DNA of 64,000 bases, from positions 1 through 64,000 of the forward strand of contig CANRSX010000022.1 in assembly GCA_947642555.1 (NCBI GenBank), read 5' to 3'. Within the stretch, counting starts at the first letter, position 1. Every line of letters starts with the position of its first letter. Source of the DNA: an uncultured Roseburia sp. Its GTDB lineage: Bacteria; Bacillota; Clostridia; Lachnospirales; Lachnospiraceae. The position numbers and the translations under genes were made by a program. The notes below the pieces were generated by a model. It was given only the letters and a program-made list of their open reading frames with translations. It had not been told where the DNA came from and did not search any database. Positions 26,076 to 64,000 of the stretch are shown here, in pieces.

Positions 26076-26104
26076 GAAAAATTTTACAAATTTTAAAATT
26101 TTTC
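26076..26104 (-). terminator. AT-rich hairpin at the end of operon A
   Basis: GAAAAATTTTA and its exact complement (arms 26094-26104 and 26076-26086) form a perfect 11-bp stem with a seven-base loop. It overlaps the stop codon of the last gene of operon A, and the 3' arm itself is T-rich. Likely the operon end, although the stem is weak. Confidence 0.55.
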
Positions 26105-28381
26105 GACAGTAGTATTATCCTGTACCAGCATCTTTCTTCCAGTATGCGCAATCCGAAGTTCTTTACTGTGATACATAAAATACAGAGTCAGAAGATTTTC
26201 CCCAAGGTAGCCAATATAGCGATCCGAACGTTCCTTACCTCTCGGGACACTGAGTTCTTCCGTCCTCTCCAAAATCGGGAACAGCCATTCACAATACCGA
26301 TCCAGCACATCTGCCTTTGCGATCAGCATATTATAATTATAAAAATACGGTTGCGACAGAATGGCCGGAAACGCATCCGCATACTCCGGATACAGTTCAT
26401 TCAGCGCCTGGCACATAGCATTCCAGTCTGTTTCTTTCAGATATCTGGTATGATGTTCAAAAATATCAGGCTCATGAATCATCGGAAACGGAAGTACCAC
26501 ATCAATCTCATCTGCCGCAAACCGGCAGAGATCCTCTTCCCTGATTTCCAGCGTCCTCCTGTAGTGAAACAGCCCATAATACACATCCGCATTGTCCGGA
26601 TCCCGTTTTATTTTATTTTTCCACATCCAGTAAAGCGCTGTCAGCTCACAATAATTCCTGTTTTTCTGCGAGATATTCTCTCCCCTGTCATCCCGCTCCC
26701 CTGCCTCACAGCTGCCTCCCAGCGCCGCACCGACCCATATCGTCTGCACCCAGTCAGGCAGCCTTTCCTGAATCTGGCTGGCTTTATCCCGGGACGATTT
26801 TGCCGCATATACACACAGCCGCGGTTCTGTCGTCCTTTTTCGTGAAACCCCATGAAGGGACGGGAACCGATGGATTTCCTTAAAATACTGTTCCATCCAA
26901 AGGGACTCCCGCTCCGAATCAAGGCAGGTAACATGATAAATCCCATGTGCGTGCAAATCGGATATGATATCCTCGTGCAGATCCTCCGGCGTCGCGATCA
27001 GAATATGGATCTCTTTATCCTCCACATCAGAAAGCTTTCGCACGGGAAGTCCTGCCAGTGTAGTGGGATTGTCCTCCAGGGATTTTACGATAAATCCGCA
27101 TACCTGCTGTCCCGGATATAGCTGCCTTATCGCAAGACAGGCACCCAAAGCAATGGATTTGGCACCATACAGATACAAAGGATATTCTTTCAGTCCGAAT
27201 GCAGACGCTGTCTCACCGCTTTTTACCAGTTCTTCATCCATAATCTGAACCTTTTCCTTTTGGTACTGTCGCGTCAGATCCTGGTATATTGCCTGTCGCG
27301 TTTTTGCAAATGAGCTTGCCGCCACAATAAAATCATATTCACATTTTGCGATTTCATCTGGTGCAATCACCGAAAATCCCTGCCGCTGCAATTCCACATA
27401 ATTCCTGTCCACCTGTGCTGCCAGCTCACAAAACCCTGTTTTTTGAATATAACGTGACAATCGCTGCCCATACGTTCCCATTCCGTACAGCACAATCCGG
27501 CTTCCCTTCCTTACTTTTGGAAACGGAAACAGATACTCCAGATTTCCGATTCCCTCATACAGCGTATCCGCTCTCGGCGTCATCAGAAATAACATATATT
27601 CTTTCCACTGTTTTCTCATATCTGAAGCATTTGGAAAACGGCCAAAACTCCGGTATACCGTTTCATAAAGAATATGAAACCGCCTGCGTTCTGTCTCCAC
27701 TGACTCCACCTGTTTTACCATAGACGAAGGCGTCTGTCTGTAATGATACAGACATTCATGTAAAATATAGATACTCTCCGCATTCAGTATATAGGGAAAT
27801 ACACATGCGAGATCCTCGCCCATTGTAAGCCTGTCGTCGACATCCATCTGATAAAATTCAAGCTCTTTCCTGTGAAACAATTTGCCACACAGTCCTGGCC
27901 AGATTCCCCACTCAAAGAAAAGCTCATTCACAATCATTTTGGGATAAATTTCCCGATTCAGCGCCGCTTTGTCGTACTTCCCTTCTCCAAAACCATGATA
28001 CACTTCTCTGCTCACCGCGCCGGTATCCTCAAAGTGACCGCACATCACAAGATCCGTCTGCTCCTGTTCCAGCAGAAGATAAAGCTGTTCCAGCATCGTC
28101 GGTTCGATCCAGTCATCTCCGTCGACATATGTAACATATTCGCCTGTCGAAAGTCTGAAGCCATCCTTTCTGGCTCTGACCAGACCGCCGTTTGGTTTGT
28201 GAAGAATCCTGATACGGGAATCCTGTCTTCCATATTCTTCGCAGATTACATCACATCCGTCTGTCGATCCGTCATCCACCACAATGATCTCAATATCGCG
28301 GAATGTCTGCCCGATAATACTTTCCAGGCATTCCGCAAGATAGCGGCTTACATTATATACCGGCACAATCACACTGATCAT
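26093..28381 (-). CDS. GT2 - Rossmann x2 - DUF4422 fusion glycosyltransferase
   Basis: 762 aa, three kinds of domain in one chain. Residues 1-230: GT2 (MISVIVPVYNVSRYL, VVDDGSTDG, YVDGDDW). Residues ~310-400 and ~420-510: two copies of the locus-wide Rossmann-like domain (IVLYGMGTYGQRL; LYLYGAKSIALG). Residues ~550-762: DUF4422, a putative glycosyltransferase domain (CVYAAKSSRDKAS, then NYCELTALYWMWKN and YYGLFHYRR). Two transferase domains suggest two successive transfers. The start is taken at MISVIVPVYN, with TGAGGGAAC upstream and ATGA overlap with the previous gene. Last gene of operon A. Confidence 0.85.
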   Translation of the reverse strand: MISVIVPVYNVSRYLAECLESIIGQTFRDIEIIVVDDGSTDGCDVICEEYGRQDSRIRILHKPNGGLVRARKDGFRLSTGEYVTYVDGDDWIEPTMLEQLYLLLEQEQTDLVMCGHFEDTGAVSREVYHGFGEGKYDKAALNREIYPKMIVNELFFEWGIWPGLCGKLFHRKELEFYQMDVDDRLTMGEDLACVFPYILNAESIYILHECLYHYRQTPSSMVKQVESVETERRRFHILYETVYRSFGRFPNASDMRKQWKEYMLFLMTPRADTLYEGIGNLEYLFPFPKVRKGSRIVLYGMGTYGQRLSRYIQKTGFCELAAQVDRNYVELQRQGFSVIAPDEIAKCEYDFIVAASSFAKTRQAIYQDLTRQYQKEKVQIMDEELVKSGETASAFGLKEYPLYLYGAKSIALGACLAIRQLYPGQQVCGFIVKSLEDNPTTLAGLPVRKLSDVEDKEIHILIATPEDLHEDIISDLHAHGIYHVTCLDSERESLWMEQYFKEIHRFPSLHGVSRKRTTEPRLCVYAAKSSRDKASQIQERLPDWVQTIWVGAALGGSCEAGERDDRGENISQKNRNYCELTALYWMWKNKIKRDPDNADVYYGLFHYRRTLEIREEDLCRFAADEIDVVLPFPMIHEPDIFEHHTRYLKETDWNAMCQALNELYPEYADAFPAILSQPYFYNYNMLIAKADVLDRYCEWLFPILERTEELSVPRGKERSDRYIGYLGENLLTLYFMYHSKELRIAHTGRKMLVQDNTTVEKF

Positions 28382-29487
28382 AGCTGTTCCCTCATTTTTC
28401 TTCTGCAGTATGCCTGATACATCCCTCTGGTCTTTTCCCTTTCTTCCTCTGTTTTCCACGAAGCTCCAAAATGATGTATTGAACATGACCGATCCGTAAT
28501 CTCACCTTCACCCCATCCCGACAAAGGCGAGAACATTTCTGTCGGATAAACGGTTATCCCTTCCTTCCTCTGAAATGTATTATCATCCCGGATTCCGAAT
28601 TCCTTTAACACTGCGGTCTGATAAGATGGACAGGGAACCTGATTCAGTGATCCGTCCGGATTCACGAACTCCAGCGACTCATAATATTCCATCAGGCGTT
28701 TCAGGTATGGATGCCCACTGACCGCACCGTATCCAAGTCCCAGATTAATGTGATTCTGATCCTCAAACCCGCAAAACATGGTCTCTCCAAGAAAATCATC
28801 CAGATTTCTGATCAGCTCCACATCACAGTCCAGATAGATGCCGCCATTTTCAAAGATAATCTGCAGGCGGGCGTAATCTGATACAAACGCCCAGCTTTTT
28901 CGCTGATAAGCCTGATCCATATATCGATTCACCGTGACATCATAATTCGATTCGTCCCAGCGTTTTATCTCGTAATCCGGACAAAATATTTTCCAGGATT
29001 CCATATAACGCTGATATTCCTGCGGAATTTCACCGCCCCCAAACCAGCAGTAATGAATGATTTTTGGTATTTGTTGCGCGCCGGATGCCTTCACCTCATA
29101 ATCCGACTCAAAACGAACGGTTTCAGATAAAAAAGTCCCGATATACACGGATATTCCATTCAGCTCAGGTCTTTGATCCAGCTGCTCCACAATCTCCATT
29201 GCATGCAGATGATTTGTAACTAATAATACCACCTGTTCTGGCTGTTCCTGACGGATAAACTGATCCAAAGACATGATCCTGTATTCCTTTGGGCCAAACC
29301 GTTTTATCGCACCCCAAAGCTGCGGATTATTATCCAGCAGGTATTCCACATGATCTTGCAGTGAATATACCGTATAAAGATTCATCACTGTATCGAAGTG
29401 ATTCCCTGCCCCGAAACAGATCAGTTTTTTCTTTTCCAGTTCTACCAAAAGTCCCCGGATCCCATCTGTTTTCATTCTGATCATCAT
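28378..29487 (-). CDS. Rossmann-fused GT32-type glycosyltransferase
   Basis: 369 aa. The N-terminal ~110 residues are the Rossmann-like domain (KLICFGAGNHFDTVMN, YLLDNNPQLWG, VVLLVTNHL). The rest is a GT32 / Gly_transf_sug domain: IPKIIHYCWFGGGEIP, SDYARLQIIFENGGIYLD followed by the DXD-type CDVEL metal site, and SGHPYLKRLMEYY. Such enzymes usually add hexoses in capsule or surface glycans. The start is one of two adjacent ATGs (29487 or 29484) behind GGGG, overlapping the upstream stop. Confidence 0.85.
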   Translation of the reverse strand: MMIRMKTDGIRGLLVELEKKKLICFGAGNHFDTVMNLYTVYSLQDHVEYLLDNNPQLWGAIKRFGPKEYRIMSLDQFIRQEQPEQVVLLVTNHLHAMEIVEQLDQRPELNGISVYIGTFLSETVRFESDYEVKASGAQQIPKIIHYCWFGGGEIPQEYQRYMESWKIFCPDYEIKRWDESNYDVTVNRYMDQAYQRKSWAFVSDYARLQIIFENGGIYLDCDVELIRNLDDFLGETMFCGFEDQNHINLGLGYGAVSGHPYLKRLMEYYESLEFVNPDGSLNQVPCPSYQTAVLKEFGIRDDNTFQRKEGITVYPTEMFSPLSGWGEGEITDRSCSIHHFGASWKTEEEREKTRGMYQAYCRRKMREQL

Positions 29488-30746: not shown

Positions 30747-32020
30747 CGCCAATTCCCCGCCACAGACCAAATCAGCTTTTCCTTAGGCACACCCATACCA
30801 AGCAGAACATCATACACTTCCAGCGCAATATCAGGATCCGCCAGTGCAATCACCAGATAATCCCACTGTATGCTGTATAATTCCGGCATCCCTTTCACCT
30901 CATAATCCTCTCTGTAGATATGATCTGCATTTTTATCGATCCAAAGCACCAGCTCATATTCTCCCGAACACACAAGCTGGTCATAATACTCTTTTCCCAC
31001 AAGCCCCGCCCCGTACAAAGCAATTCTGCTTTGGGTTTTCACTTTTTGAAATGGAAACAGAAACGTTCTGTTCGTGAGTCCCGAAGTCAGACTCTCCGAA
31101 CAGATACCCTTCATCAGAATCTCCAAAGGCTTTATCAGACGAGACTGCACAGCCTCCTTTTCCTCAATCCAATCCCACCTTACCACTGTATTCAGATTCA
31201 AAAGTCTCTGTAAAATCCCGACATCATTCTTCATCCCACACAAAATATCGGAAACATACATTTCATTAATCCGGCAGTAGGTCCTCCAATGCAGCTTTTT
31301 CAGCTCCTGTTCCGCTGAAAACTTCATGTTTTCAATCAGTCCATCCAGCAAATCCGCCGCTTTTGCCGGCGTAAAAATACATTTGTCATGTGACCAGCGA
31401 TAACAGTAAAACGGTTCCTTTGCGATGCAGAATTCTTTTGCCAGTGTCATTGCCCGCACCATAAAAGGCGGATCCTCATAAAACCGACGCAATGGAAACT
31501 GAAGGTTATTTTCGTTCAAAAATCTGCGGTTAAACAAAAAGTTATACTGATAAAAATCATACTGATAATGTATATAAGGTATCTTCTCCCCTTCTCTGAC
31601 CTGATCTGCCAGATTTCCATAAATATTCTGCGGGCTGACGTTTCCCTCATCATCATGATAAAACAGCCCCCCCATTATTTGGACCGACGCCTTCACTGCC
31701 GCCTGATACAGATGCTCCAACGACGTTTTGCTCATATAATAATCATCCGCATCCATAAAATGCACGTACTCGCCTGCTGCGGCCTCAAGCCCCCGGTTCC
31801 TCGCCGCACCCGGTCCCTGGTTTTTCTGCCGTATCAGGCGGATCCGAGGATCTGCTCTTCCAAACTCCTCCAGAATCTCTGTTGATCCATCTGTAGATTC
31901 ATCATCCACACAGATGATCTCCAGCTCTTTTAGCGACTGCTCCTGTATGGACTGCATACAATTCCTGATATATACACTCTTATTATAAACCGGAATAACA
32001 ATGGAAACCTTACTCTTCAT
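30743..32020 (-). CDS. GT2 glycosyltransferase with C-terminal Rossmann domain
   Basis: 425 aa. GT2 domain: KVSIVIPVYNKSVYIRNCMQS, VDDESTDGSTEIL, GPGAARNRGLEAAAGEYVHF, MDADDYYM. At about residue 330 the Rossmann-like domain begins (RIALYGAGLVGKEYYDQL, VLWIDKNADH, DYLVIALADPD). The ATG at 32018-32020 has AGAGGA upstream and lies within the end of the sulfotransferase gene. Confidence 0.87.
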   Translation of the reverse strand: MKSKVSIVIPVYNKSVYIRNCMQSIQEQSLKELEIICVDDESTDGSTEILEEFGRADPRIRLIRQKNQGPGAARNRGLEAAAGEYVHFMDADDYYMSKTSLEHLYQAAVKASVQIMGGLFYHDDEGNVSPQNIYGNLADQVREGEKIPYIHYQYDFYQYNFLFNRRFLNENNLQFPLRRFYEDPPFMVRAMTLAKEFCIAKEPFYCYRWSHDKCIFTPAKAADLLDGLIENMKFSAEQELKKLHWRTYCRINEMYVSDILCGMKNDVGILQRLLNLNTVVRWDWIEEKEAVQSRLIKPLEILMKGICSESLTSGLTNRTFLFPFQKVKTQSRIALYGAGLVGKEYYDQLVCSGEYELVLWIDKNADHIYREDYEVKGMPELYSIQWDYLVIALADPDIALEVYDVLLGMGVPKEKLIWSVAGNWR

Positions 32021-33236
32021 ACCATATTCCTCTGAGACTTCTTCCAAGAAATGATTCCATTTCCCGTATGCTGTCCATATAAAACCGGGTTAGTTCCTCT
32101 TTCGTCTTCCCAAGCATCGGTTCAGAATAATTTTCATTTGTAATCAGCCAGATCTGATCTCTCACATGCTGCATGGAAGCAAATAATTCCACGTCTTTTT
32201 CCTCTGTCTCTCTCATCAGATCCATAATGCTCCGGTTAATGTATGCACATGCCAGATTTTTCGGAACCCGTTCCCCTTCATTGACATGAGGCAGCACATC
32301 ATATCTGATCCTTTGCTCCCGGTCAAGCCCTATATATTCCTGAACCTCCTCCATAACGATATCCGGACACTTTATCATATCCTCAAAAAGTACGATCTTA
32401 ATCTGATCCTTCGGATAATAATTCAGATATTCTCTGATATAATTTATATAACAGAATATATCTTTCTCATTTTCCCGCCGGATCCATTCGTCAAATACTT
32501 CCGGCGTCAGTTTCCTGTATTTCTGCAGATAATAAAAGATCCGATCGCGAAAACCATCACGCATCTGCATCCGAAAAAGAGAATATGCCGCTTTTACAGG
32601 GTTTCTGATACAAAATAACAGCTTCAGATCTTTCCCAAAATAATGATAAACCGTCTTTGCAGACTTCAGATACACCGGTTCAATCCCGCCTGCCACTTTC
32701 CCAGCAGTAAGAACGGCGGGATAACTCTGATGAAAATTCTTATGCGCAGATGACAGCCAGATATTTTCTATGAATGCCGTTTCTTTTGTTTCCGGAAGGT
32801 AAACTGCCGGATTCTGCTTTAATGCCACATGCAGAGATGTCGTACCACACTTAGCAAAACCACAGCAGAGAAAATCCAGGTAAATCTTTCCATATTCATT
32901 AATCCATTTCTGAATCAGATCATCCGAAAACAATTCTTCTATCTGTGTATGATCAACATATTGTTCCAGCTGTGTTCTGATATCTCTTCGTACCTGCTCA
33001 TTTGCCGCCGCGATCAGATACCTTGCATTTGTAAACCAGTGAGCTCCACCTTCAGCCGGAAATACAGTGCAATTATCATAAGCATGATTATCCAGACACA
33101 GCAGCTCACATTTTCCCATGCTCTCCAAAATCTCCCTGCATGTCCTGCCCCATTTTCCCATCGGGATAATCACAATCTTCTCTGTCTTCTCCGCAAGCAC
33201 CCCAAGTCTCTCTTCTATCCAGTTCTGATCCATCAT
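32010..33236 (-). CDS. Rossmann-fused sulfotransferase
   Basis: 408 aa. Residues 1-110 are a divergent form of the Rossmann-like domain (KIVIIPMGKWGRTCREIL, ARYLIAAANEQ). From residue ~120 the chain is a PAPS-dependent sulfotransferase: CCGFAKCGTTSLHVAL is the 5'-phosphosulfate loop and FCIRNPVKAAYSLFRM the 3'-phosphate-binding segment. It would move sulfate from PAPS to a sugar hydroxyl. A second such enzyme is at 54308-55228. Two adjacent ATGs follow GGGGGAG; 33233 is the alternative start. Confidence 0.87.
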   Translation of the reverse strand: MMDQNWIEERLGVLAEKTEKIVIIPMGKWGRTCREILESMGKCELLCLDNHAYDNCTVFPAEGGAHWFTNARYLIAAANEQVRRDIRTQLEQYVDHTQIEELFSDDLIQKWINEYGKIYLDFLCCGFAKCGTTSLHVALKQNPAVYLPETKETAFIENIWLSSAHKNFHQSYPAVLTAGKVAGGIEPVYLKSAKTVYHYFGKDLKLLFCIRNPVKAAYSLFRMQMRDGFRDRIFYYLQKYRKLTPEVFDEWIRRENEKDIFCYINYIREYLNYYPKDQIKIVLFEDMIKCPDIVMEEVQEYIGLDREQRIRYDVLPHVNEGERVPKNLACAYINRSIMDLMRETEEKDVELFASMQHVRDQIWLITNENYSEPMLGKTKEELTRFYMDSIREMESFLGRSLRGIWYEE

Positions 33237-33260: not shown

Positions 33261-34352
33261 CTATTCCGCTGTTGCAAAATCTGTGACAGACGGATGAACG
33301 CCGCACTGCTCCCACTCTGTCTCACAGAGAACACAGTGTCTGCAGAGTGGCACATCTTTTTGTAATGCGTCCAGCAAATCAAATCCTTTCGGGCAATCGC
33401 TCAGCTGCAGCGCACCCTCCTCAGGCAGATTCTGCTCAAATACCTGGTTAAACTGCCGTATATACATTAAGGTCGGACATCTTGTAATCCTGCCATTCCA
33501 TATATTGACGCACCGTTCAGAGATACATGCATGCGGGTATCTGCTCGCTTCAGATAAAGACAGCGGCTTCACAAACTTCTGCTTCTCCTGATATGGCTGA
33601 ATGTAATATGTAATCCCATATCGATCAAGCGTATCCGTAATTCGGTCTATCATCTGATGTGTCGGTTTGTATTCTGATATCTGAACAACAATCTTATTCT
33701 CCCTGATACATTCCAGAATCCCAGCGCTTAACCGCGGAATCAGTAATCCGTTGGTCACAATCTGTATATATGTATCCGGTAACATCTTCCGAATCTCTGC
33801 CGCATACCGGTCTATCTGCGGATTGAGGAACGGCTCCCCTCCCAAAATAGAAAAAATAACGATATGCGGTATCTTTTCTTTGAGCATTTGCACATCGCGG
33901 ATTACCGTCTCAAAATCCGGCTGTTTCTTTTCAAAAAGTGGCGAAAAATGTGTGCAGCCTTTACAGTTCAGATTACAGCTGTCCATAATATGCATCTCAA
34001 CCTTCGGCAAGACGCAATCGCCCCAGTTACAGACTGTACATTCATCCCGAATAAAATCTCCGGTCTCCCCACACCTGCTCTCTCTGTTTTCAAAACGGTA
34101 AATATCATGAAACCCGGCTCTTTTCAGCGTATTATATGCTTCCGCCACAATCAGTGAATCCGCAATGGTAATCACGATACGAATATCTTTTTTTTCAATT
34201 TCAGAGACAGGATATACAGAATACCCACAAAATTCACCTGTCTTTTCCCTGTCGACAAAACCCTCAAGAATATCACCGTGATGTTCCTTCCGATTATAGA
34301 TCTTCAGTGCGGCTTTGCCCCAGTTACCTGCTCCGTAAAACAACATACTCAT
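33261..34352 (-). CDS. Rossmann-fused radical SAM protein
   Basis: 363 aa. Residues 1-95 are the Rossmann-like domain (SMLFYGAGNWGKAALKIY, GFVDREKTGE, IRIVITIADSL). A radical SAM core follows, with CNLNCKGCTHF supplying the CxxxCxxC cluster ligands and SILGGEPFLNPQ as the GGE motif. The C-terminal region has further cysteines (CISERCVNIWNGRITRCPT; CRHCVLCETEWEQC), as in SPASM/Twitch auxiliary-cluster domains. The reaction is unknown; radical sugar modification such as dehydration, epimerisation or C-methylation is possible. ATGA overlap with the preceding GT2. Confidence 0.85.
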   Translation of the reverse strand: MSMLFYGAGNWGKAALKIYNRKEHHGDILEGFVDREKTGEFCGYSVYPVSEIEKKDIRIVITIADSLIVAEAYNTLKRAGFHDIYRFENRESRCGETGDFIRDECTVCNWGDCVLPKVEMHIMDSCNLNCKGCTHFSPLFEKKQPDFETVIRDVQMLKEKIPHIVIFSILGGEPFLNPQIDRYAAEIRKMLPDTYIQIVTNGLLIPRLSAGILECIRENKIVVQISEYKPTHQMIDRITDTLDRYGITYYIQPYQEKQKFVKPLSLSEASRYPHACISERCVNIWNGRITRCPTLMYIRQFNQVFEQNLPEEGALQLSDCPKGFDLLDALQKDVPLCRHCVLCETEWEQCGVHPSVTDFATAE

Positions 34353-35191
34353 AGATCCTGCCCCTCATTCCTTCCCAGATACCTCTTTATGCTCTCCCAC
34401 AGAACATACTTATATGATGTCAGCATATACTTCAAAAATGATTTTCTCTGATTGCCATGCAGTAATTTTGATGACTGTCCATGCTTGTGAAAAATGCATG
34501 TCTCATCATTTAATTTTTCTTCCAGCCCCGTCTTTTTACACCTGAGGTACAAAAGCTCTTCCTCGCAGTATAAAAAGGTTCTCGGATCCAGTCCGTCATA
34601 ATACTGAAAATATGCCGGTGTCAGCATTAAAACACACCCCTGAAGCACCGGCACAGATTTGATCTGTTTTAGTCTCTGTTCCCAAAAATTCAGGCTCACC
34701 GGATGATCCCGATATTCCGCCCTCGCTGCAGAATAATAAAACAGTGTACCCGGAAATGTAACATATCTGGGAATCATCCTCACCTTCACATTGTCCCGCT
34801 CCACAATCCTGCTTCCGATCACGCCGATCCTGTCTGCATCCGCAGCCAGCATTTTCTTAAGATATGCGCGATCCTCCATCAGCGTATCGCTGTTCAGCAG
34901 CATCACATAGTCCGCTAAAAGACGTTCTCTTGCATAACGGATCCCAATATTGTTTCCTTTTGCAAATCCGTAATTTTTTCGGGCACGAATCACTGTTACA
35001 GATTTTTTTCTTTTATATCTGTCATACAGATAACGGTAAGATTCATTATCAGAGCCATTATCAACAATCAGAATATGATAATCCGCATATTCCTGCTGCA
35101 GTACACTTTGCACGCATTCTTCTGTCTCTCTGTAATTCAGATAATTTAATATCACGATCACGATTCTCGGATCTTTTCTATTCTCCGCCAT
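34349..35191 (-). CDS. GT2 glycosyltransferase (rhamnosyltransferase-like)
   Basis: 280 aa. IVIVILNYLNYRETEECVQS, IVDNGSDNES, RKNYGFAKGNNIGIRYARE and MLLNSDTLM are the pattern of the GT2 subgroup that includes rhamnosyltransferases. Its start overlaps the stop of the small anchored gene by one base (TAATG), with GAGGTATA upstream. Second gene of operon A. Confidence 0.85.
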   Translation of the reverse strand: MAENRKDPRIVIVILNYLNYRETEECVQSVLQQEYADYHILIVDNGSDNESYRYLYDRYKRKKSVTVIRARKNYGFAKGNNIGIRYARERLLADYVMLLNSDTLMEDRAYLKKMLAADADRIGVIGSRIVERDNVKVRMIPRYVTFPGTLFYYSAARAEYRDHPVSLNFWEQRLKQIKSVPVLQGCVLMLTPAYFQYYDGLDPRTFLYCEEELLYLRCKKTGLEEKLNDETCIFHKHGQSSKLLHGNQRKSFLKYMLTSYKYVLWESIKRYLGRNEGQDL

Positions 35192-35667
35192 TATACCTCA
35201 TACAAAATATCTTCCAGTGAAAGAATCGGGCAGTTTGTCTTCTGACACAGCTGATCTTCAATTTCGTCAAAGAAAGTAATCGCCGTCACCACAATTGCAT
35301 CGACTTCGTCCAGCGGATCATCCATTGTCACAATCTCCACATCCGCATACATGGTATCCGCCTTTTTATCAATGCCATATGCAACCTGAACGTCCGAATG
35401 CTTCAGCTCTTCTATAAGCGTCTCCCCCGCATAACTCATCCCATAGATTGCGATCTTCTTATATCCGTTTTCTTCAAAATAGGATGCGAGGTTTTTCCCC
35501 TCCTGCTTCACCTTTACCCACTGGTTCATCATAAGAAACAGCGCCAGGTGCTTGTTCGCGTACTGCTGCTCCGTATTGATCTTTTTCTTCGCAAGCCTTC
35601 CTGTGGCAGCCGCACCTCCTGCAGCACCTGCCAGTAATGATAACACTCCGATGATTCCTTTTTTCAT
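35191..35667 (-). CDS. Membrane-anchored stand-alone Rossmann protein, paralogue 1
   Basis: 158 aa. The N-terminal segment MKKGIIGVLSLLAGAAGGAA is hydrophobic (anchor or uncleaved signal), then a short basic helix, then the Rossmann-like domain from residue ~70: KIAIYGMSYAGETLIEEL, YGIDKKADTMYADVE, DAIVVTAITFFDEIE, NCPILSLEDI. No enzymatic domain is attached. A homologue of similar length is at 58077-58562. AAAGGAGG lies eight bases before the ATG. First gene of operon A, directly behind a promoter-dyad-terminator module. Function unknown; a membrane docking role for the fused enzymes is my inference. Confidence 0.8.
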   Translation of the reverse strand: MKKGIIGVLSLLAGAAGGAAATGRLAKKKINTEQQYANKHLALFLMMNQWVKVKQEGKNLASYFEENGYKKIAIYGMSYAGETLIEELKHSDVQVAYGIDKKADTMYADVEIVTMDDPLDEVDAIVVTAITFFDEIEDQLCQKTNCPILSLEDILYEV

Positions 35668-35715
35668 GATAATTTCCTCCTTTTCTTTACATGTTTCATG
35701 TTCATACTCCATGAT

Positions 35716-36977: not shown

Positions 36978-38198
36978 TTATTCCTTTTCTTTCTCCTGAT
37001 ATGCGGGATTCTTTTCCATCCAGTAATCAATCCCCAGCTGTCTGCAACGCTGACAACTCACACTTTTTAGCATTTTCTGCCGGATTTTTTTCATTTCCTC
37101 AAAAGAATGTATCTCAAAAACACTGTCCCAGATATAACTTTCACAGGCATCATCGCTTGCACAGCAAAGCACCAGCCGCCCGTTGCAGTCAATCGAAATA
37201 ATGTTCTCCAAAAAACAGTGGTACCCCTGTGGTCTTTCCTTCAAAAGCCCCTCTACATGAGATAAAAATAGCTCCTGCTCCGCTATTGCTCTTGTTTCAG
37301 GCTCCATACTGCCTTCTATATACTCCTGTGCCATACTATTTCCGTTAAAGTACGGATAATATGGATGAAACTGTAAGTTCTGCGATATCGCAAATTCTTT
37401 TGCGGCTTCCAGTTCCTGTGTATTAAACCGGTATACATGAAACGAAATGCTTCCCTCTCCGTTAAATCCGTTTTCCTTCAGATCCTGATTAATTTCTGTA
37501 ATATTTTTCTTTATCTGTTCAAAAGAAAACCCATGAATCCGGTTATAGGAATCCTGTGAAAATCCCGGCATTGAAAAAATAAATGCACAGCAATTTTTAT
37601 AGGCGTCTCTACGTTTCACGAGCCTTACAACAGACGCGTTTGTACTGACAGAAAACATTTGTCCCTGCTCCGCAAGATAATCCACAATTGAACTATAGTC
37701 CTGATTCAGAAAAGGCTCTCCCCAGTTATATAGCATGATTTCTGTACACTTTTCAATAATTCCACTCTCATACAAGTGCTCATACAGCTGTATGAACGCT
37801 TCATATGACATAGTCTGCATTTTAAATTCACACTGCCTGTTTTTCACCCCCGTAACACAATATTTACATTTTGCATTACAACAACCCGATATATCTATGG
37901 AAATCCTCTGCCAAAGCAGCTGATCCACGCCGTCGTATATCGGTATCGATACAATCTTTTCCAGCTGTGTCCGGATTTCCGACCGTTTCGACGATGCAAT
38001 TACAATACTGTCAGGCACTTCATACCCGCGCAGCTCATCCGCACCGATTATCGGTATCCCATATTTTTTCCTGCCACACAGTTCCCTGTTATTATCCCCA
38101 AAAGCAACGATCTCATATCTTCTGTGACCTTTTAACAGTTCATATGTCTGTTCTCCACGTGCAGCGGTTCCCCATATTAATATTCTTTGTTTTTTCAT
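36978..38198 (-). CDS. Rossmann-fused radical SAM/SPASM protein
   Basis: 406 aa. Residues 1-85: Rossmann-like domain (RILIWGTAARGEQTYELL, AFGDNNRELCG, DSIVIASSKRS). Residues ~95-300: radical SAM core with SGCCNAKCKYCVTG (CxxxCxxC) and YNWGEPFLNQ in place of the common GGEP. C-terminal cysteines in LVLCCASDDAC and VSCQRCRQLG suggest a SPASM auxiliary cluster. It shares architecture, but little obvious sequence, with the enzyme at 33261-34352. GGGAGGG precedes the ATG, and only three bases separate it from the upstream gene. Confidence 0.85.
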   Translation of the reverse strand: MKKQRILIWGTAARGEQTYELLKGHRRYEIVAFGDNNRELCGRKKYGIPIIGADELRGYEVPDSIVIASSKRSEIRTQLEKIVSIPIYDGVDQLLWQRISIDISGCCNAKCKYCVTGVKNRQCEFKMQTMSYEAFIQLYEHLYESGIIEKCTEIMLYNWGEPFLNQDYSSIVDYLAEQGQMFSVSTNASVVRLVKRRDAYKNCCAFIFSMPGFSQDSYNRIHGFSFEQIKKNITEINQDLKENGFNGEGSISFHVYRFNTQELEAAKEFAISQNLQFHPYYPYFNGNSMAQEYIEGSMEPETRAIAEQELFLSHVEGLLKERPQGYHCFLENIISIDCNGRLVLCCASDDACESYIWDSVFEIHSFEEMKKIRQKMLKSVSCQRCRQLGIDYWMEKNPAYQEKEKE

Positions 38199-40792: not shown

Positions 40793-41848
40793 TCATATTT
40801 TTTCAAAATAAAATAACCCGTACCGGTATTCTCCGTTGTGACCATCCTGGTCGTATTTATGCAGATCAACATGATATTCTATCTTCCCTTCCGCTGCACA
40901 GGAAAATTCCTTTAATTCAAGCCCAGCAAAATTTTCTATGATAGTACCTGCATAAAACACCCTGTGGGCATTGAATTCCACCCGTTCCCTGCCGACCGGA
41001 ACCGTCAGATATAGTTTCCCTCCGTACGCCAGCTTCTTTTTTATCTGCGAAAAACACTTAAAACATGCCTCCGGATCCACCGTATCCCCATATCGTCCCA
41101 GTCCAAAATGTTCCAGTGAGCAGAGCGCCGACAAACTTCCGATGCTCTCATCTTCGATATGCTCCAGCAGCGTCGCGTCATCAATCACCATAGAAAGCCC
41201 TTCCACCTCCACCGGAAGCGGTCGGATATCAATTGCATTTACCCGAATCCCGGCAGAAAGCAGATGCGCCAAAAAACCGTCGACACGGCTTCCGATATCA
41301 TAATGCTCTCTTACTCCGCTCTGAATCACAAGCTTTGCCGCCCACAGATCCTGCCAAAAATAATTCCCCATAGTCCCGTTACTGGCAAACCGGTCCATAA
41401 GCACCGGCCATAGATACTCATCCTGAATCTCAAAACTCTTTCTATGATTGAGCTTTTTATACTGTTTTAAATCTTCTTCAAAAAAGGTATGTGTAGTAAG
41501 ACCATACTCCGCCTGATAATTTGTATAATTTTTTTCTCCCAGGAATTTTCTTAAATCTGACGGCATTTCTGTATGCTTCGTCGATCTGCCGCGGACAAGA
41601 AACACGATCTTCTCCATCTCCAATCCGTTTGCCGCACACCATTCAGATATCTCGTCTCCGAAACGGTTCGCAACCAGTATGTAGTCGAACGTATGCGGAA
41701 TCTCCTCTGCACTGACCACAGGGAAACCGCAGAAACTATCCTTTGTTTTTTTCGTCTCTATAAATCCTGCGATTTCCCTTCCAAGACCATTATCCATTAT
41801 TCGTGCTGCAATCTCACCGGTTCCCCATATCCAGATTTCCATACTCAT
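40793..41848 (-). CDS. Rossmann-fused DUF268 protein
   Basis: 351 aa. Residues 1-95: Rossmann-like domain (EIWIWGTGEIAARIMD, GFIETKKTKDSFCG, DYILVANRFGDE). Residues ~150-345: DUF268, with HYDIGSRVDGFLAHLLSAG, NAIDIRPLPVEVEGL, LCSLEHFGLGRYGD and FNAHRVF. DIGSRVDG followed by an acidic strand resembles a SAM-methyltransferase nucleotide site, so methyl transfer to a sugar is possible, but the family has no established activity I can cite. Confidence 0.75.
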   Translation of the reverse strand: MSMEIWIWGTGEIAARIMDNGLGREIAGFIETKKTKDSFCGFPVVSAEEIPHTFDYILVANRFGDEISEWCAANGLEMEKIVFLVRGRSTKHTEMPSDLRKFLGEKNYTNYQAEYGLTTHTFFEEDLKQYKKLNHRKSFEIQDEYLWPVLMDRFASNGTMGNYFWQDLWAAKLVIQSGVREHYDIGSRVDGFLAHLLSAGIRVNAIDIRPLPVEVEGLSMVIDDATLLEHIEDESIGSLSALCSLEHFGLGRYGDTVDPEACFKCFSQIKKKLAYGGKLYLTVPVGRERVEFNAHRVFYAGTIIENFAGLELKEFSCAAEGKIEYHVDLHKYDQDGHNGEYRYGLFYFEKI

Positions 41849-41875: not shown

Positions 41876-43444
41876 TCATATTATAAAATGATTACATATA
41901 CGAAAATAATCTCTGTTTCGAACTTTTCCATTTTTCTCAAGTTCAGCTATTATCTCTCGCTCACTTCCCGGATCCGCAACAGCAATCAGTATCGTTCCAC
42001 AAGTTGTAGTCAGGGAATCTTCCTTACAAAAAATGGGATATCCGAGATATTCGCCCTGCTTTCTGGTATCAATAAAGCCCTTTATCATATGACCCCTTCC
42101 AGACAGCTGAAGCCATTCTGATACACGTCCTCCCCAATAGCCAGCTCCCCAGATCAGAATCTCTGTATTCTCTTTTCCTGACAACACCTCACATACATGC
42201 AGAAAAAACCACAGCTTGTCCTTTAAGATTTCCGTTATCTCCTCCACCGGTTTTGTCCCTGCAAATATGCCAAGCTTTTGCATAACATTCTCCGCCTTTA
42301 TGCGAAAAGCCCAGTTCCCATTCCTGCTGTAATCCTGCAGGATCCATGTATAATACTGCTCCAGCTGGTCTCCCGCCACTGCATAAGTGTGATTCTCAAG
42401 ATATGTCTGATACGCGTGCTCTACAAGGGATGGGAGCCGTCCGGATTCCCGGTATTCCAAATAATTCAGAAACGCATGATACAAATTGTCTTCCTGATAT
42501 CCATCCGAGAGAAATCCATTCTCCCCGTCTTTTAATAATTCGGGCACTCCGGCAACCGGCGTGGATAAAACCGGGACTCTGTTTGCCATGCTTTCCACAA
42601 TAACACCCGGATACGATTCTTCCACACTCGCCTGAATCAGCAGATCAGCTGACTGCAGATAATGTTCTACATTTGAAACAAAACCGGCAAATGTCACGAT
42701 CTCAGAAAGTCCGTTTTCTGCAACAAACTTCCTGCATAACTCGCCATAAGGATTCTCGTCATTTCCAAGAATAACCAGACGCACAGGAATCCCTTTCTCC
42801 CTGCACTTTAAAGCAAACCGGATTACCTTCAGCTGTTGTTTTCTCTCACACAATACCCCGACAGACACGAGCGATACCGGCAGAGAATCCCTATTCAACC
42901 GCTCTTCTTCCATTCCTTTTTTTTCATATGCAACCCGGATGCATCTTGAGGGAATCCCAAGCCCCTCCCCCCAGCACCGGGAAAACAACAACGAATCTGC
43001 ACTGTGATACTGTGGGTATATATTCATCCAGTTTATACGGAAAGACTGCCTGTCCACCTGATAAATATTCATCAGATGCGGTATCTTAAGTTCACGTGCC
43101 GCCATCTCCACTGCAATATTCAGCTGTGCGCTGTGAATCAGATCCGGCTTCTGCGCTTCGATCAGGCAAACCAGCGGCTGATATTCCTCCAATGCCGCAA
43201 CGATATCAATATCCTCCATGCATACTGCAACAGAATATCGGGCTGTTAGCGTATCCAGTCCATACTCTTTGCATATCCTGTCGTATTCCGCTGCATGACA
43301 GCCATCTGCATCATTCGGTATCACCACCTTTACCCGGAATCCCCTCCGCCGCATCAGAAATGCCTGTGTTAATAGTACTTTATTGGAACCGCCTACAAAA
43401 AAAGGGAAATCCAAAAAGTAAAGAATATTAATAGCCCAACTCAT
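41876..43444 (-). CDS. GT4 glycosyltransferase with C-terminal Rossmann domain
   Basis: 522 aa. GT-B glycosyltransferase: N-terminal domain FPFFVGGSNKVLLTQAFLMR; C-terminal donor domain VSVGVLCERKQQLKVIRF, ADLLIQASVEESYPGVIVES (E-x7-E) and VPELLKDGENGFL. From residue ~430 the Rossmann-like domain follows (EILIWGAGYWGGRVSEWL, GFIDTRKQGEYLG, GTILIAVADPGSE). ATGA overlap with the preceding GT2. Confidence 0.87.
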   Translation of the reverse strand: MSWAINILYFLDFPFFVGGSNKVLLTQAFLMRRRGFRVKVVIPNDADGCHAAEYDRICKEYGLDTLTARYSVAVCMEDIDIVAALEEYQPLVCLIEAQKPDLIHSAQLNIAVEMAARELKIPHLMNIYQVDRQSFRINWMNIYPQYHSADSLLFSRCWGEGLGIPSRCIRVAYEKKGMEEERLNRDSLPVSLVSVGVLCERKQQLKVIRFALKCREKGIPVRLVILGNDENPYGELCRKFVAENGLSEIVTFAGFVSNVEHYLQSADLLIQASVEESYPGVIVESMANRVPVLSTPVAGVPELLKDGENGFLSDGYQEDNLYHAFLNYLEYRESGRLPSLVEHAYQTYLENHTYAVAGDQLEQYYTWILQDYSRNGNWAFRIKAENVMQKLGIFAGTKPVEEITEILKDKLWFFLHVCEVLSGKENTEILIWGAGYWGGRVSEWLQLSGRGHMIKGFIDTRKQGEYLGYPIFCKEDSLTTTCGTILIAVADPGSEREIIAELEKNGKVRNRDYFRICNHFII

Positions 43445-58049: not shown

Positions 58050-58076
58050 TTTACAAGCACCTCTCTTCTGCCCGTT

Positions 58077-58562
58077 CTACGCTTCATGCTCCATTTCAGA
58101 CAGGATATCCTCAAATGAAATAACCGGACAGTCCGTGACCTCCATCAGCGTACGTTCTATCTCATTAAAATAAAAGAAAGCTGTAATGATAATTGCATCC
58201 GCCACAGGCAGTTGATCTCCTGGATCCATAACCTCAACCCCTGCATTCACCGCTTTCGCATTCCGATCAATTGCATACTTCACCTCAACGCCCCCGGTTT
58301 GCAGTTCCTTTAACAGACATTTCCCAAGATAATGCATTCCATAAATCGCAACGGAACGATAACCATTCTTCTTAAGGTGTTCTGCAACCGATCTGCCGTT
58401 TTGTCTCAAAATCATCCAGCGTTCGAAAACGTTCAGAATCGCATCATTTTTCTGATCCAGTTCTTTTTCTTTTTTTAACTTATCATTCATTGCCCTAAAG
58501 ACACCAATGCCACCCAGGCCCATTCCGCACAATCCCAAAACCAGCGCTGTCATTTTTTTCAC
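58077..58562 (-). CDS. Membrane-anchored stand-alone Rossmann protein, paralogue 2
   Basis: 161 aa, paralogue of 35191-35667. N-terminal hydrophobic segment (MTALVLGLCGMGLGGIGVF), short charged helix, ILNVFERWMILRQNGRSVAE, then SVAIYGMHYLGKCLLKEL, YAIDRNAKAVNAGVEV, DAIIITAFFYFNEIE and DCPVISFEDI. The YGMxYxG turn and the final CP(I/V)(L/I)S(L/F)EDI are shared with paralogue 1. The start is GTG with AGGGA seven bases upstream. No catalytic residues are recognised. Confidence 0.8.
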   Translation of the reverse strand: MKKMTALVLGLCGMGLGGIGVFRAMNDKLKKEKELDQKNDAILNVFERWMILRQNGRSVAEHLKKNGYRSVAIYGMHYLGKCLLKELQTGGVEVKYAIDRNAKAVNAGVEVMDPGDQLPVADAIIITAFFYFNEIERTLMEVTDCPVISFEDILSEMEHEA

Positions 58563-60487: not shown

Positions 60488-60496
60488 TGTTCTCTC

Positions 60497-61132: not shown

Positions 61133-61163
61133 ATCTTTCCTCTCTGTTTTATTTCTTTTCCTC

Positions 61164-61206: not shown

Positions 61207-61223
61207 CAACTCTGATCTCATAT

Positions 61224-61263
61224 ATTGTATACATCCATGTATCTAATATATCATCCATGATAT
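61224..61263 (-). promoter_or_regulatory. Tandem-dyad promoter, module B
   Basis: Minus strand: dyad 1 ATATCATGGATGATAT (61248-61263, identical to module A), dyad 2 ATACATGGATGTAT (61229-61242, perfect), then TACAAT (61224-61229). Dyad centres are 20 bp apart. As in module A, dyad 1 covers the -35 position and no good -35 hexamer exists. Confidence 0.65.
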
Positions 61264-61277
61264 AACCGCTGTCCTAT

Positions 61278-61304
61278 ATATCGACCACTTCAAACCGATA
61301 CATA
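61278..61304 (-). promoter_or_regulatory. Sigma-28-like promoter, module B
   Basis: Minus strand: TATG (61301-61304), 15 bases, GTCGATAT (61278-61285). Same spacing and similar elements as in module A; flanking GGGTTATG is identical in both. Confidence 0.5.
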
Positions 61305-61362
61305 ACCCCTGCATCTATACTCCATTATATGACAAAAAGGGATCTGTATCCTCCAAACTCCA

Positions 61363-62526
61363 TTAAATCCTAATATGCCCCTTATCATCCCTTCCATAAC
61401 ACCACCACAAATACTCTTCTATGTATTCCCTGAAATCCATTTTTTCACACGCTTTTTTCGCCACCCTGCCATTCCTAATAAACTGATCACTCCATTTCAA
61501 TCCCAAAATGTCTTTTACAACCGGGTACACCGGTTCCTCATGCATATCAAGACTAAATTCAGCAACAATATTTTTATCTTCAATATGAAGCATGTCTAAT
61601 ATATCCAAACATATTTTTTCAAAAATATCATTTGTCGGATGACCCATGTCAAAAAATAATTTTTTCTCTTTATAATTATTTAGGATATAATCTAATATTT
61701 TAATGTCCCAGCAGGTTTCCCTCTCTCTGATTTTATGCAGATATGTTTCAAAGTTTTCTTTCACACTTTCGACATCCAGGCACTTTCCGTTGCAAAAAGC
61801 GATAATCTCTTCTTTTTTCATCTTCTGTTCTACGCATCTGTCAATCACTTTATCCGCATATGGAAACATACCGTTTGCATCTTTTCCATTCGCTATTTTA
61901 TCATTTCGCTTGTTCCAGTCAGATTGCGGAAACAATAATTTCCCTAAACCAAACAAATGTGGGATAATAATTTCAACCACGCTCTCTTTCATCTGATTTC
62001 TCATATATTCATCTGACAGATAATAGCCATACTCATTATCCAGTCTTATATCTTCATGAATCCAGACATCGCTATGATATAATACTTCTTTTTCTATTTT
62101 CCTGTCACTATTATTACAAATCTCAGGATTGGGATAAACAGAATATCGTCCGCGAAATGTTTCAGAAGACAACAGAAAAGACCTGATTATCGCCATATGA
62201 CAGTTTCCATGCAGAAGTACAATTTTCTTATATAACCATTCATAATATATATAATCTTGAAACTCCCGCAAGCCACTCCCACAAAGTTGTTTTGAAATCG
62301 ACAGATACACTTCTATACTTGTCGCCACGAGTATAAACATTCCCTGCGGCAGTTCATCAATCTCATAAACCGGACAATCACAAAAACAACCCACCTCACG
62401 GTTATTATTGATATAACATGCTATCTTAATTCCCTTCTCCTTCAAATAATAGGTACACCGAACACTATTGAGCGCCGTTCCAAATATCGCAATCTTTCTA
62501 TTACCAATCCAGTGCAAACTATACAT
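61363..62526 (-). CDS. Rossmann-fused WcbI-like protein
   Basis: 387 aa. Residues 1-105: Rossmann-like domain (KIAIFGTALNSVRCTYYL, CYINNNREVGCFC, MFILVATSIEV). From residue ~107: IVLLHGNCHMAIIRSFLL, the GNC-x motif of WcbI-type capsule proteins (putative acyltransferase/esterase fold), with a late FDMGHPTNDIFEKI block that supplies an Asp-x-x-His. The start is ATG 62524-62526, seven bases from AAGGAG; a GTG two codons earlier is too close to that site. Its stop is about 60 bases before module B. Confidence 0.78.
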   Translation of the reverse strand: MYSLHWIGNRKIAIFGTALNSVRCTYYLKEKGIKIACYINNNREVGCFCDCPVYEIDELPQGMFILVATSIEVYLSISKQLCGSGLREFQDYIYYEWLYKKIVLLHGNCHMAIIRSFLLSSETFRGRYSVYPNPEICNNSDRKIEKEVLYHSDVWIHEDIRLDNEYGYYLSDEYMRNQMKESVVEIIIPHLFGLGKLLFPQSDWNKRNDKIANGKDANGMFPYADKVIDRCVEQKMKKEEIIAFCNGKCLDVESVKENFETYLHKIRERETCWDIKILDYILNNYKEKKLFFDMGHPTNDIFEKICLDILDMLHIEDKNIVAEFSLDMHEEPVYPVVKDILGLKWSDQFIRNGRVAKKACEKMDFREYIEEYLWWCYGRDDKGHIRI

Positions 62527-62538
62527 ATTCACGCTCCT

Positions 62539-62661
62539 TTATATCTCTGCACAAATTTTTGATCGTTTTCGCAATCTATAACTTGTGCCATCCGTAAAGG
62601 TATATTGCGACAATACTTTCACATCCTTCAGTTTTTGATAAATCTGTGCAAGCGTCTCCAC
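62539..62661 (-). CDS. Possible 40-residue ORF or gene remnant
   Basis: An open frame from GTG (62659-62661) to TAA, with GGAGG about ten bases upstream, encoding a basic peptide that includes LSQYTFTDGTSYRLRKRSK. It fills most of the 187-base gap between two genes. It could be a small protein, a leader peptide or the tail of a deleted gene; I recognise no family. Confidence 0.25.
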   Translation of the reverse strand: METLAQIYQKLKDVKVLSQYTFTDGTSYRLRKRSKICAEI

Positions 62662-62713
62662 CTAACCCCTTCCTCCAGACCCCATTATATACCATTGCAA
62701 TTTACATATTGTT

Positions 62714-64000
62714 TCAAATCCCGGTACTGATAATCTGATAAACTGCTTCCGCGATCAGCTGATTTCCTTTTTCAAACACATGGCATTCGTCAATGTATAT
62801 ATCCTGTTTATTGTCAAAAATATCTGACAGGTCATAAATATATCTGTATTGTTCTGAAATTTCCTCAAACCTTTTCTTAAACTCCTCCGCCTTTTCATAT
62901 GTTCTGATATTAGTAACAGAAGACCACAACAATCCTCTTTCTTCTTTTGATATTTTCTTTTTATAAAACAGCGTCGGTTGAAAAAAGGAATAAAACCTAA
63001 TCTGCTCACTTTCACAAATTGCCTTCATTTTCTTTATATTTCCCAGCCATATATTAAACAGATCCGTTGAAACCTCAAGACCTGAATACGGCGGAACAAT
63101 TTCCGAAAAATGATCCAGCCATATTTCACTTCTATATTTATATGCGAAATCCATTGCTCTTTTCAGCTCGTCAAACGCAAACGGATTTTCCGTCCCAAAC
63201 TGACTCAGCATGTCCAAAGCTCCATCGTAGGCAATAACCAGATCCGGCTTTAAAAACATGACATCTCTGATCAGTTTTATCAGTTCATGCGCAGAGGTAT
63301 ATGTGGCCACGCTTCCATTATAAATCGTTACGTCCTTACGGTTTATCTGTTTATACAGAAACTCAGGCCAGGATTTAAATGAATACAGCTCCCCCTCTGT
63401 CGTTGACGCCCCTAGGACAACGATTCTTTTACCAGGTGAAACCTGATTCCCTATCACGGAAAATCCGCACACACCCTGCTTTCCCACAAAGGAATGGCCC
63501 AAATTAATATCCAGAATCTCATCCCGCATCCCCACATACGAAACCTGAAACGGATTATCCAGCCCGACGTCCCGCAGCATAACCAAATCCAGATCTTCTA
63601 ATACCCCTGACAGTCTCTGGTAATCTTTCCGGCTGATCAGGACAAAAAAATCACTCTCATAAAGTACCTCTTCAATCGAAATTGTATTATCTTCACACGT
63701 CCCGTCATCTATAAGACCCTTCACGCAAAAATCCAGCAGTTCATAAATCCGCGCAATTTTTCTGCTTCTCTCCGAAGTGCCATAGACAAACACTTTTTTA
63801 TTTCGAATGACCTCTCTTGCCCTTCCAATATAGTTTGTACAGAATATTTCTTTTCCTTCAAGCAGGATTCTTTTCTCTGTAAAATCATTCAATGTCCTGT
63901 AATTATAGCGATATCTCGTCAGATCAGGCGCCTGATCCGATATTGTCTGATCAATCTCATCATACGCATCCCGGACAGCGATCACCACAGACATGTCTAC
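62714..64000 (-). CDS. Rossmann-fused SGNH-hydrolase-like protein, possibly partial
   Basis: At least 426 aa. The first visible ATG is at 63994, but the frame is open to the right edge and no ribosome binding site is visible, so the true start may lie outside. Residues ~60-145: Rossmann-like domain (KVFVYGTSERSRKIARIY, GLIDDGTCED, DFFVLISRKDY). From residue ~185: RIVVLGASTTEGELYSF, a GxSxT nucleophile motif like SGNH/GDSL esterases, then LVIAYDGALDM and a late YIDECHVFEKGNQLIAEA with the Asp-x-x-His pair. Likely adds or removes an acyl group on a glycan. Confidence 0.75.
   Translation of the reverse strand, partial: VDMSVVIAVRDAYDEIDQTISDQAPDLTRYRYNYRTLNDFTEKRILLEGKEIFCTNYIGRAREVIRNKKVFVYGTSERSRKIARIYELLDFCVKGLIDDGTCEDNTISIEEVLYESDFFVLISRKDYQRLSGVLEDLDLVMLRDVGLDNPFQVSYVGMRDEILDINLGHSFVGKQGVCGFSVIGNQVSPGKRIVVLGASTTEGELYSFKSWPEFLYKQINRKDVTIYNGSVATYTSAHELIKLIRDVMFLKPDLVIAYDGALDMLSQFGTENPFAFDELKRAMDFAYKYRSEIWLDHFSEIVPPYSGLEVSTDLFNIWLGNIKKMKAICESEQIRFYSFFQPTLFYKKKISKEERGLLWSSVTNIRTYEKAEEFKKRFEEISEQYRYIYDLSDIFDNKQDIYIDECHVFEKGNQLIAEAVYQIISTGI

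Follow-up and report, generated by a model that had tools for sequence, protein, structure and literature searches.

A Rossmann-like module carried by many enzymes of likely flagellin glycosylation loci in Lachnospirales

The domain described here, which we call R, is a Rossmann-like module of the PglD_N, CoA_binding_3 (WbaP–PglF) and C2185-like_N kind. PglD_N (PF17836; PglD, NeuD and VioB) resembles R in its Rossmann-like fold, its GxGxxG turn and the aspartate after strand 2, and R gives profile matches to the entries 4m9c, 7txp, 7l7z and 3bss; however, PglD_N is the fixed part of one acetyltransferase, whereas R is a free module on many enzymes, and no hexapeptide-type acetyltransferase partner was found among 42 R proteins scanned against Pfam. 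R also has the same fold as the N-terminal domain of WbaP and PglF-type enzymes (CoA_binding_3, PF13727; PDB entry 3nkl), although the latter is joined to a four-helix membrane bundle and to one of two enzyme types. According to a study of WbaP (PMC10942596), this domain is both a dimer contact and a uridine-nucleotide binder: UMP, UDP and UTP stabilize it in a thermal-shift screen, and UMP inhibits WbaP with an apparent IC50 of 4.1 µM. The authors describe the domain as ‘one-size-fits-all’, speculate that it could reach to another enzyme of the pathway and term its presence in unrelated WbaP-type transferases and PglF-type dehydratases puzzling. With C2185-like_N (PF22674), R shares the fold of residues 1–98 of the Clostridium acetobutylicum entry 2g6t. 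Rex, a DNA-binding redox sensor, combines an NADH domain with a winged helix; the R proteins of the window have no such DNA-binding part, its place being taken by glycan enzymes or, in the anchored proteins, by a membrane-type helix. As regards genomic setting, the nearest described systems are the Maf-type flagellin glycosylation islands. No published flagellin island with one module on many enzymes was found among the matches listed in the open-licence PMC literature.

In the window (the whole stretch of 64,000 nucleotides that was analysed), 13 copies of the approximately 85-residue R domain lie between positions 26909 and 63811. They are carried by 12 of the roughly 40 ORFs of the locus, several GTs being without R. 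The features are as follows, with bit scores for R from a profile built on relatives only.

11856..12629, minus strand: flagellin gene, 257 aa (Flagellin_N 7.4e-23, Flagellin_C 6.7e-9)
16803..18098, plus strand: FliD-type gene adjoining the glycan locus (FliD_C 1e-10)
18181..24551, minus strand: R-less start of the island, with two Glyco_trans_1_2 (CgeB-like) GTs, a GT2-TPR protein, a zinc alcohol dehydrogenase, an IspD-type cytidylyltransferase and the product of 23778, which judging by its sequence we take to be a ribulose-phosphate 3-epimerase
26909..27187, minus strand: R, second copy in 26093, adjoining DUF4422 (36.2 bits)
27239..27511, minus strand: R, first copy in 26093, after GT2 (38.1 bits; GT2 and DUF4422 by Pfam)
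29143..29442, minus strand: R, N-terminal in 28378 (Gly_transf_sug, GT32-type, by Pfam; 31.0 bits)
30758..31039, minus strand: R, C-terminal in 30743 (GT2; 42.0 bits); a separate domain beyond a low-confidence linker in the AlphaFold2 model
32928..33194, minus strand: R, N-terminal in 32010 (sulfotransferase; 15.5 bits, the lowest of the 13)
34083..34352, minus strand: R, N-terminal in 33261 (radical SAM; 36.3 bits)
35191..35712, minus strand: stand-alone R protein with an N-terminal membrane-type helix (AlphaFold2), R at 35209–35472 (62.1 bits)
37926..38198, minus strand: R, N-terminal in 36978 (radical SAM; 53.2 bits)
41594..41848, minus strand: R, N-terminal in 40793 (DUF268; 36.9 bits)
41897..42175, minus strand: R, C-terminal in 41876 (GT4; 39.1 bits)
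58077..58562, minus strand: the other anchored protein in which R stands alone, R at 58110–58367 (53.8 bits), with a TM-like segment close to its N-terminus
62242..62511, minus strand: R, N-terminal in 61363 (WcbI, 6e-23; 43.0 bits)
63560..63811, minus strand: R in 62714 (GDSL-type; 31.4 bits), the next copy lying at contig positions 63932–64174

The original prediction of 13 segments of a single domain was borne out for all of them, each in the gene it had named: a profile of 75 segments from other genomes, which had themselves been recruited from the window's R copies as starting point, finds 13 of 13 (15.5–62 bits, iE ≤ 5.8e-5; top decoy 7.2). Leave-one-out HMMs retrieve ten at 17.5–57 bits, well above 2,040 shuffled decoys (top decoy in any run, 9.9), and leave the second copy of 26093 and the copies of 28378 and 62714 at 5.9–6.7 bits, within the decoy range; these three reach 31–36 bits with the relatives-only profile. 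A weaker match had also been proposed in 38202, which the profile rejects (3.5 bits leave-one-out, 2.3 bits relatives-only). The copy in 62714 is present but is not N-terminal as had been thought, since the ORF runs to contig position 64477 and encodes 587 aa with two internal copies, the second spanning the right edge of the window. Beyond this edge, 64493–66010 holds a further, weaker copy (20 bits). The doubled domain of 26093 was recovered in both its copies and looks like the fusion of a GT2-R protein with an R-DUF4422 protein: homologues of the first half (398 aa, 55–56% identity) occur in loci L104 and L119, and the other half has a counterpart of 365 aa (L057:7179-8276). The UDP-glucose dehydrogenase 46855 was considered as a carrier and excluded from the counts, its 8.7–8.9 bits reflecting generic Rossmann similarity. 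Elsewhere in the same genome, only one Rex-size and one PglD-type protein match R at E ≤ 0.01.

Profile matches place flagellin and FliD-type genes on the flanks of the R locus, as in Maf-type islands, and a homologue of the FliD-type gene 16803 (9e-190) lies 5 kb from R genes in genome G015. The original prediction had missed these flanking genes. R is statistically linked to flagellin: in the order sample, with genome kinship ignored, flagellin is present in 41 of 41 R-rich genomes versus 122 of 204 others. An R cluster lies within 20 kb of flagellin in at least 14 of 36 genomes, against 3.1 expected from a rough random-placement estimate; these 36 were chosen as R-rich rather than at random, and their flagellin rows are incomplete, so that the linkage may be understated (for G000, flagellin was taken from a separate Flagellin_N/Flagellin_C/FliD_C profile scan). 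MptE-like (Maf-type) genes lie between the R cluster and flagellin in four genomes (G459, G363, G113 and G250), and R-MptE-like fusions occur in G012 and G023. MptE-like matches were obtained in ten of 14 genomes tested, some beside R clusters. No MptE-like match lies on the window's contig (C22); those of this genome accompany other flagellins, on C2 and C30.

A lipid-linked Wzx/Wzy capsule locus was considered and found improbable, as no multi-TM flippase or polymerase gene was detected in the locus itself, although such genes may lie elsewhere: by simple hydropathy, none of 51 selected window ORFs has four or more TM-like segments, and among relatives this number is reached by five of 840 ORFs and none of 71 anchored ones (56 loci), and by three of 193 ORFs in other stretches. 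The window locus is probably not a capsule locus, and the R-bearing loci of Lachnospirales are most likely flagellin glycosylation islands. Counting against this reading, the other 22 of the 36 genomes have flagellin more than 20 kb away or not among the same-contig matches listed, four of the 14 genomes gave no MptE-like match, and both R-fused MptE-like proteins are short and match weakly.

The expectation of a PglD_N-like fold agrees with profile matches of R to PglD/VioB/Pcryo-type acetyltransferases, the WbpM/PglF-type entry 3nkl, Rex and WbaP, and with structure comparisons, in which R resembles 3nkl, Rex and 2g6t. Scores against the Pfam families themselves fall around or below the cut-offs. 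For PF17836 (gathering score 23.4 bits), protein scans place five of 12 window R proteins at E ≤ 1, the best at 21.5 bits and none above the cut-off; a genome scan brings 41876 (24.9 bits) and 30743 (24.2 bits) above it, and 26093 only when the frame includes its neighbours. In relatives, E ≤ 0.001 is reached by three of 30 R proteins, of which the one from L055 scores slightly above the cut-off, at 23.6 bits. PF13727 gives five rows at E ≤ 1 in this genome (C9, C38, C35 and C15), none of them on C22, and the only match to PF22674 (cut-off 27 bits) is 40793, below the cut-off at 14.7 bits (E 0.15–0.16).

Relatives hold 376 R proteins in 56 Lachnospiraceae loci, which were found via the anchored R protein and are biased to Lachnospiraceae having it; the copy numbers given by whole-genome scans are minimum values, since no more than 15–21 candidates per genome were scored, from truncated match lists. 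With the window and four more genomes, the partners of R form 92 sequence clusters (single linkage at E 1e-12, so not every cluster is a separate family), and they span about twenty Pfam families in one locus type, as read for 12 R proteins in the window and for 30 of 70 from relatives. In 305 enzyme-type proteins with 306 copies, R is N-terminal in 154, C-terminal in 132 and internal in 20. Five clusters contain proteins with R at the N-terminus as well as proteins with it at the C-terminus; these include a chained GT cluster of 152 members. Homologues without detected R occur in 36 of 55 multi-member clusters, some being truncated or sub-threshold. Homologues of GT and tailoring enzymes carry R in 103 of 153 cases, versus one of 64 for precursor (nucleotide-sugar) enzymes, as counted from 19 window GT/tailoring queries, ten of them R-bearing, and eight hand-picked precursor queries. 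R is one domain family, placed at either end of glycan-building rather than precursor enzymes, and it has apparently been joined to enzymes many separate times. Its carriers look soluble, because few have a TM-like segment (9/305, versus 55/535 R-less ORFs). That R might be a structural or solubility appendage inherited inside each enzyme family, with no shared function, would fit the GT2 carriers, in which it is C-terminal in 69 of 70; yet this is very unlikely, given that R has 92 partner clusters, that its copies in this genome are restricted to a single locus and that its glycine turn is retained at about 20% mean identity.

Indeed, the enzyme copies keep the GxGxx[GA] turn and the aspartate (Gly10 96–97%, Gly12 91–93%, Asp34 78–81%), and Asp34 is followed by Asn or Ser in 67% of the enzyme copies that are N-terminal and in 43% of the others (residues equated by position). 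This phosphate-binding-type turn and acidic residue suggest, at the level of sequence, that R may bind a nucleotide or nucleotide sugar. We may wonder whether R is then a nucleotide sensor, through which UMP, UDP or another by-product turns down each enzyme in a pathway-wide feedback, as proposed for the WbaP domain. The nucleotide-binding folds of its closest solved relatives, the retained motif and the effects of uridine nucleotides on WbaP (PMC10942596) all speak for it. We nevertheless consider it unlikely: R is virtually absent from precursor-making enzymes (the 1/64 above), and a conserved allosteric contact is hard to picture with R at either end and behind a linker of about 30 residues (301–330, pLDDT 49–54) in the AlphaFold2 model of the GT2-R protein 30743, in which R (pLDDT 83–97) is predicted to be a separately folded unit. 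Precursor-making enzymes are the usual target of feedback. The same loose tether and variable placement weigh on a second possibility, namely that R, like the PglD-type N-domain of an acetyltransferase, grips a shared NDP-linked intermediate by its nucleotide, the attached enzyme acting on the sugar. Such a handle would explain how a single intermediate could undergo methylation, sulfation and radical SAM chemistry, and would fit the retained Asp34, often followed by Asn or Ser; but a fixed position over the active site would be expected, and 36978 has an R-less homologue in L086, which makes this reading quite unlikely.

As originally predicted, the two anchored paralogues, 35191 and 58077, each have an N-terminal hydrophobic segment, and AlphaFold2 models the product of 35191 as an unbroken helix (17–70) followed by a Rossmann-like domain (pLDDT 92). 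The proposal that such proteins form a membrane hub on which all the enzymes dock fares less well as a general rule and appears highly unlikely. Anchored R is conserved between loci (mean pairwise identity 0.44, versus 0.20 for enzyme copies, partly by construction as these ORFs were collected by similarity), with 71 anchored-type ORFs in the 56 loci selected for them, although only 41 of the 71 pass the TM-like threshold. On the other hand, only five of the order sample's 41 R-rich genomes yielded an anchored protein, at a threshold (E 1e-12, with 15 scored candidates) that could miss divergent ones, a stand-alone one was not found in G004, whose locus has 20 R proteins, nor in G012, G017 or G024, and no universal hub protein emerged among the R-rich genomes scanned. 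Enzyme and anchored copies show no matched code either, their identity being 0.208 both within and between loci; among R copies in general it is 0.205 within and 0.202 between, and sequence-coded pairing is unlikely because there is no within-locus excess.

We tentatively favour R as an autonomous assembly module for flagellin glycosylation, perhaps responsive to nucleotides. The R modules of soluble enzymes would bind one another or a shared partner, and the enzymes thus gathered would act jointly on the nascent flagellin glycan; anchored R proteins, where present, could also keep the complex at the membrane. A bound nucleotide or nucleotide sugar may switch the association, which would be compatible with the WbaP domain as reported, a binder of uridine nucleotides that also forms a dimer contact (PMC10942596). 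Against assembly, the conserved turn of R points, as a sequence feature, to a putative small ligand, for which a domain that serves docking alone would have no use; the lack of within-locus similarity and of a universal hub, and the several window GTs without R, also count against it. The broader reading, in which one nucleotide-binding-type module, independently acquired, gathers soluble enzymes as an adaptor for the whole flagellin glycan pathway of Lachnospirales, with one nucleotide signal opening or closing the line, is somewhat unlikely.

The repeated joining of one module to differing enzymes suggests a common way to gather or control an assembly line, and extends to about twenty Pfam families a puzzle that PMC10942596 raises for two enzyme types with the same kind of fold. 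R would also serve as a sequence handle to spot flagellin glycosylation genes without a known flagellar name. In motile gut bacteria, flagellins meet the immune system. Finally, natural pairs with and without R make the function of the shared domain directly testable, the cleanest being 36978 and its L086 homologue, which are 64% identical.

Within the window, R, the Rossmann-like domain of about 85 residues, was found at the genes named in the original prediction, as 13 copies in 12 proteins of a glycan island. This island occupies the minus strand of contig C22, of which the window covers positions 1-64000, from about 18 kb to 69 kb, in a genome of 4.99 Mb (88 contigs). Only these 12 of the approximately 40 locus ORFs in the window carry R, and it is absent from 29487, 34349, 35854, 43441, 44412, 45675 and 53022 (window genes by start coordinate). 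The proposal that the 13 segments recover one another held for ten of them, which scored far above shuffled decoys with leave-one-out profiles, whereas three stayed at decoy level. A profile built only from other genomes' segments, and partly dependent in that these were recruited starting from the window copies, recovered 13/13, the lowest being 32010 at 15.5 bits compared with 7.2 bits for the best decoy. With this profile the weaker match suggested in 38202 falls away (2.3 bits). Outside the locus, the next R-profile matches in the same genome are a 217-aa frame (7.5e-5), which matches Rex in size, and a 210-aa PglD_N protein (0.005), with three further rows at E values of 0.6-0.9.

R matches at E <= 1e-7 occur in 38 of 45 same-family genomes, this one included, and in 90 of the 245 genomes of an order-level sample. 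At the phylum level 55/249 genomes have a match, many being single hits in frames of about 210-250 or 620-640 aa, sizes suggestive of Rex and CapD-like proteins, respectively. Fetched stretches of same-genus genomes hold 20 (G004), 9 (G011), 7 (G012), 7 (G015), 9 (G017) and 16 (G023) R proteins, one dehydrogenase being excluded from the counts. A further set of 56 named Lachnospiraceae loci, collected through the anchored protein (a stand-alone R with an N-terminal membrane-type helix), holds 376.

Once R is masked, sequence clustering of its partners from these 56 loci, the window and four additional genomes gives 92 clusters, of which 37 are singletons. Among the Pfam families of R proteins are GT2, GT4, Gly_transf_sug, GT61, WbsX, RgpF, CDP-glycerol glycerophosphotransferase, cytidylyltransferase, sulfotransferase, radical SAM, B12-binding, FkbM and class I methyltransferases, DUF268, DUF1919, DUF4422, DUF5672, WcbI, NKWYS, MptE-like and GDSL. 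R is present on 103/153 homologues of glycan-building or tailoring enzymes compared with 1/64 of nucleotide-sugar makers, the one being a 918-aa multi-domain protein (Fisher 5e-22; the queries were window proteins, and 10 of the 19 GT/tailoring queries bear R). From their sequences the R-carrying enzymes look soluble, a TM-like segment being found in 9/305 carriers versus 55/535 R-less ORFs.

Across enzymes R is N-terminal in 154 cases, C-terminal in 132 and internal in 20; with GT2 it is C-terminal in 69/70. A protein of another locus (L086) shares 64% identity with the radical SAM part of 36978, and its likely start codon directly precedes the catalytic domain, indicating that this enzyme type exists without R. 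Three related proteins of about 830 aa have internal R copies (L060 and L061; G023 77717-80212, 89238-91706 and 91690-94188), and a Pfam scan of the first gave no match at E <= 0.001. The L077:10895-11719 product matches an R-bearing twin from another MAG (L076:2775-3893) without a difference across 274 aa and stops before R, which sits in a separate short ORF; this reflects either gene splitting or misassembly.

Since R occupies either end, is joined by short or low-confidence linkers and accompanies chemically unrelated enzymes, its function is most likely independent of the catalytic domain, namely assembly, possibly nucleotide-gated. The closest studied relative is a domain in WbaP, described in PMC10942596 as noncatalytic and as supplying most of the dimer contact; uridine nucleotides stabilize it in a thermal screen and UMP inhibits the enzyme, and a wider role in pathway flux is the authors' speculation. 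Two further papers report that the EpsZ counterpart is part of a dimer interface in a model (PMC12802240) and that the PglD-type domain of Pcryo_0637 binds UDP (PMC8040287). On this reading, some lineages would have acquired the anchored proteins as an extra component. These proteins were detected in 5/41 R-rich genomes (at least four R copies; G000, the genome studied here, G103, G156, G221 and G265), as well as in several genomes that have a lower number of R copies (G059, G100 and G209). Enzyme copies, with a mean identity of about 20%, keep Gly10 (96-97%), Gly12 (91-93%) and Asp34 (78-81%); Gly12 is present in only 35% of anchored copies. Sequence comparison found no locus-specific code among R copies. 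The fold is already known from solved structures, 2g6t probably being a family member. The system-level use looks undescribed so far: no paper among those listed in searches of the open-licence literature describes such reuse on many enzymes.

Two flagellar genes precede the island:
11856-12629, flagellin gene, ahead of the island
16803-18098, FliD_C gene, directly ahead of the island

The flagellin gene is short and lies among genes that look by eye like rpoB/rpoC and ribosomal-protein genes; flagellin matches across this genome total 11. Flagellin is found in 163/245 genomes of the order sample and in 41/41 R-rich ones (Fisher 9e-9, genomes counted irrespective of relatedness). Among the matches listed, an R cluster and a flagellin gene are no more than 20 kb apart in 14/36 R-rich genomes, against an expectation of 3.1, and no more than 50 kb apart in 20/36, against 6.1; for 12/36 no same-contig flagellin is listed. 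MptE-like (Maf-type) genes separate flagellin from the R cluster in G459, G363, G113 and G250. In G012 and G023 an MptE-like protein that is shorter and a weaker match carries a fused R; 4 of 14 genomes tested gave no MptE-like match. Maf enzymes O-glycosylate flagellins, according to PMC11339370. Because of this linkage, and because multi-TM genes are scarce in the window and in relatives' loci, a cytoplasmic pathway for flagellin glycan is a better fit than a capsule made through lipid-linked intermediates.

The 534-aa product of 38202-39806 resembles CBS at its N-terminus and GT-D at its C-terminus, both weakly and under Pfam cut-offs. The adjacent island proteins 50041-51021 and 51039-51938 each show by eye a glycine-rich strand-turn like that of nucleotide-binding folds; a Pfam scan at E <= 1 gave zero matches for either. 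Two ORF pairs further along C22 (L124; 69764-71261 and 72047-75272) each consist of neighbours whose starts are near-identical and are perhaps mobile-element-type genes, and the ORF at 24542-25252, inside the island, resembles by eye a fragment related to them.
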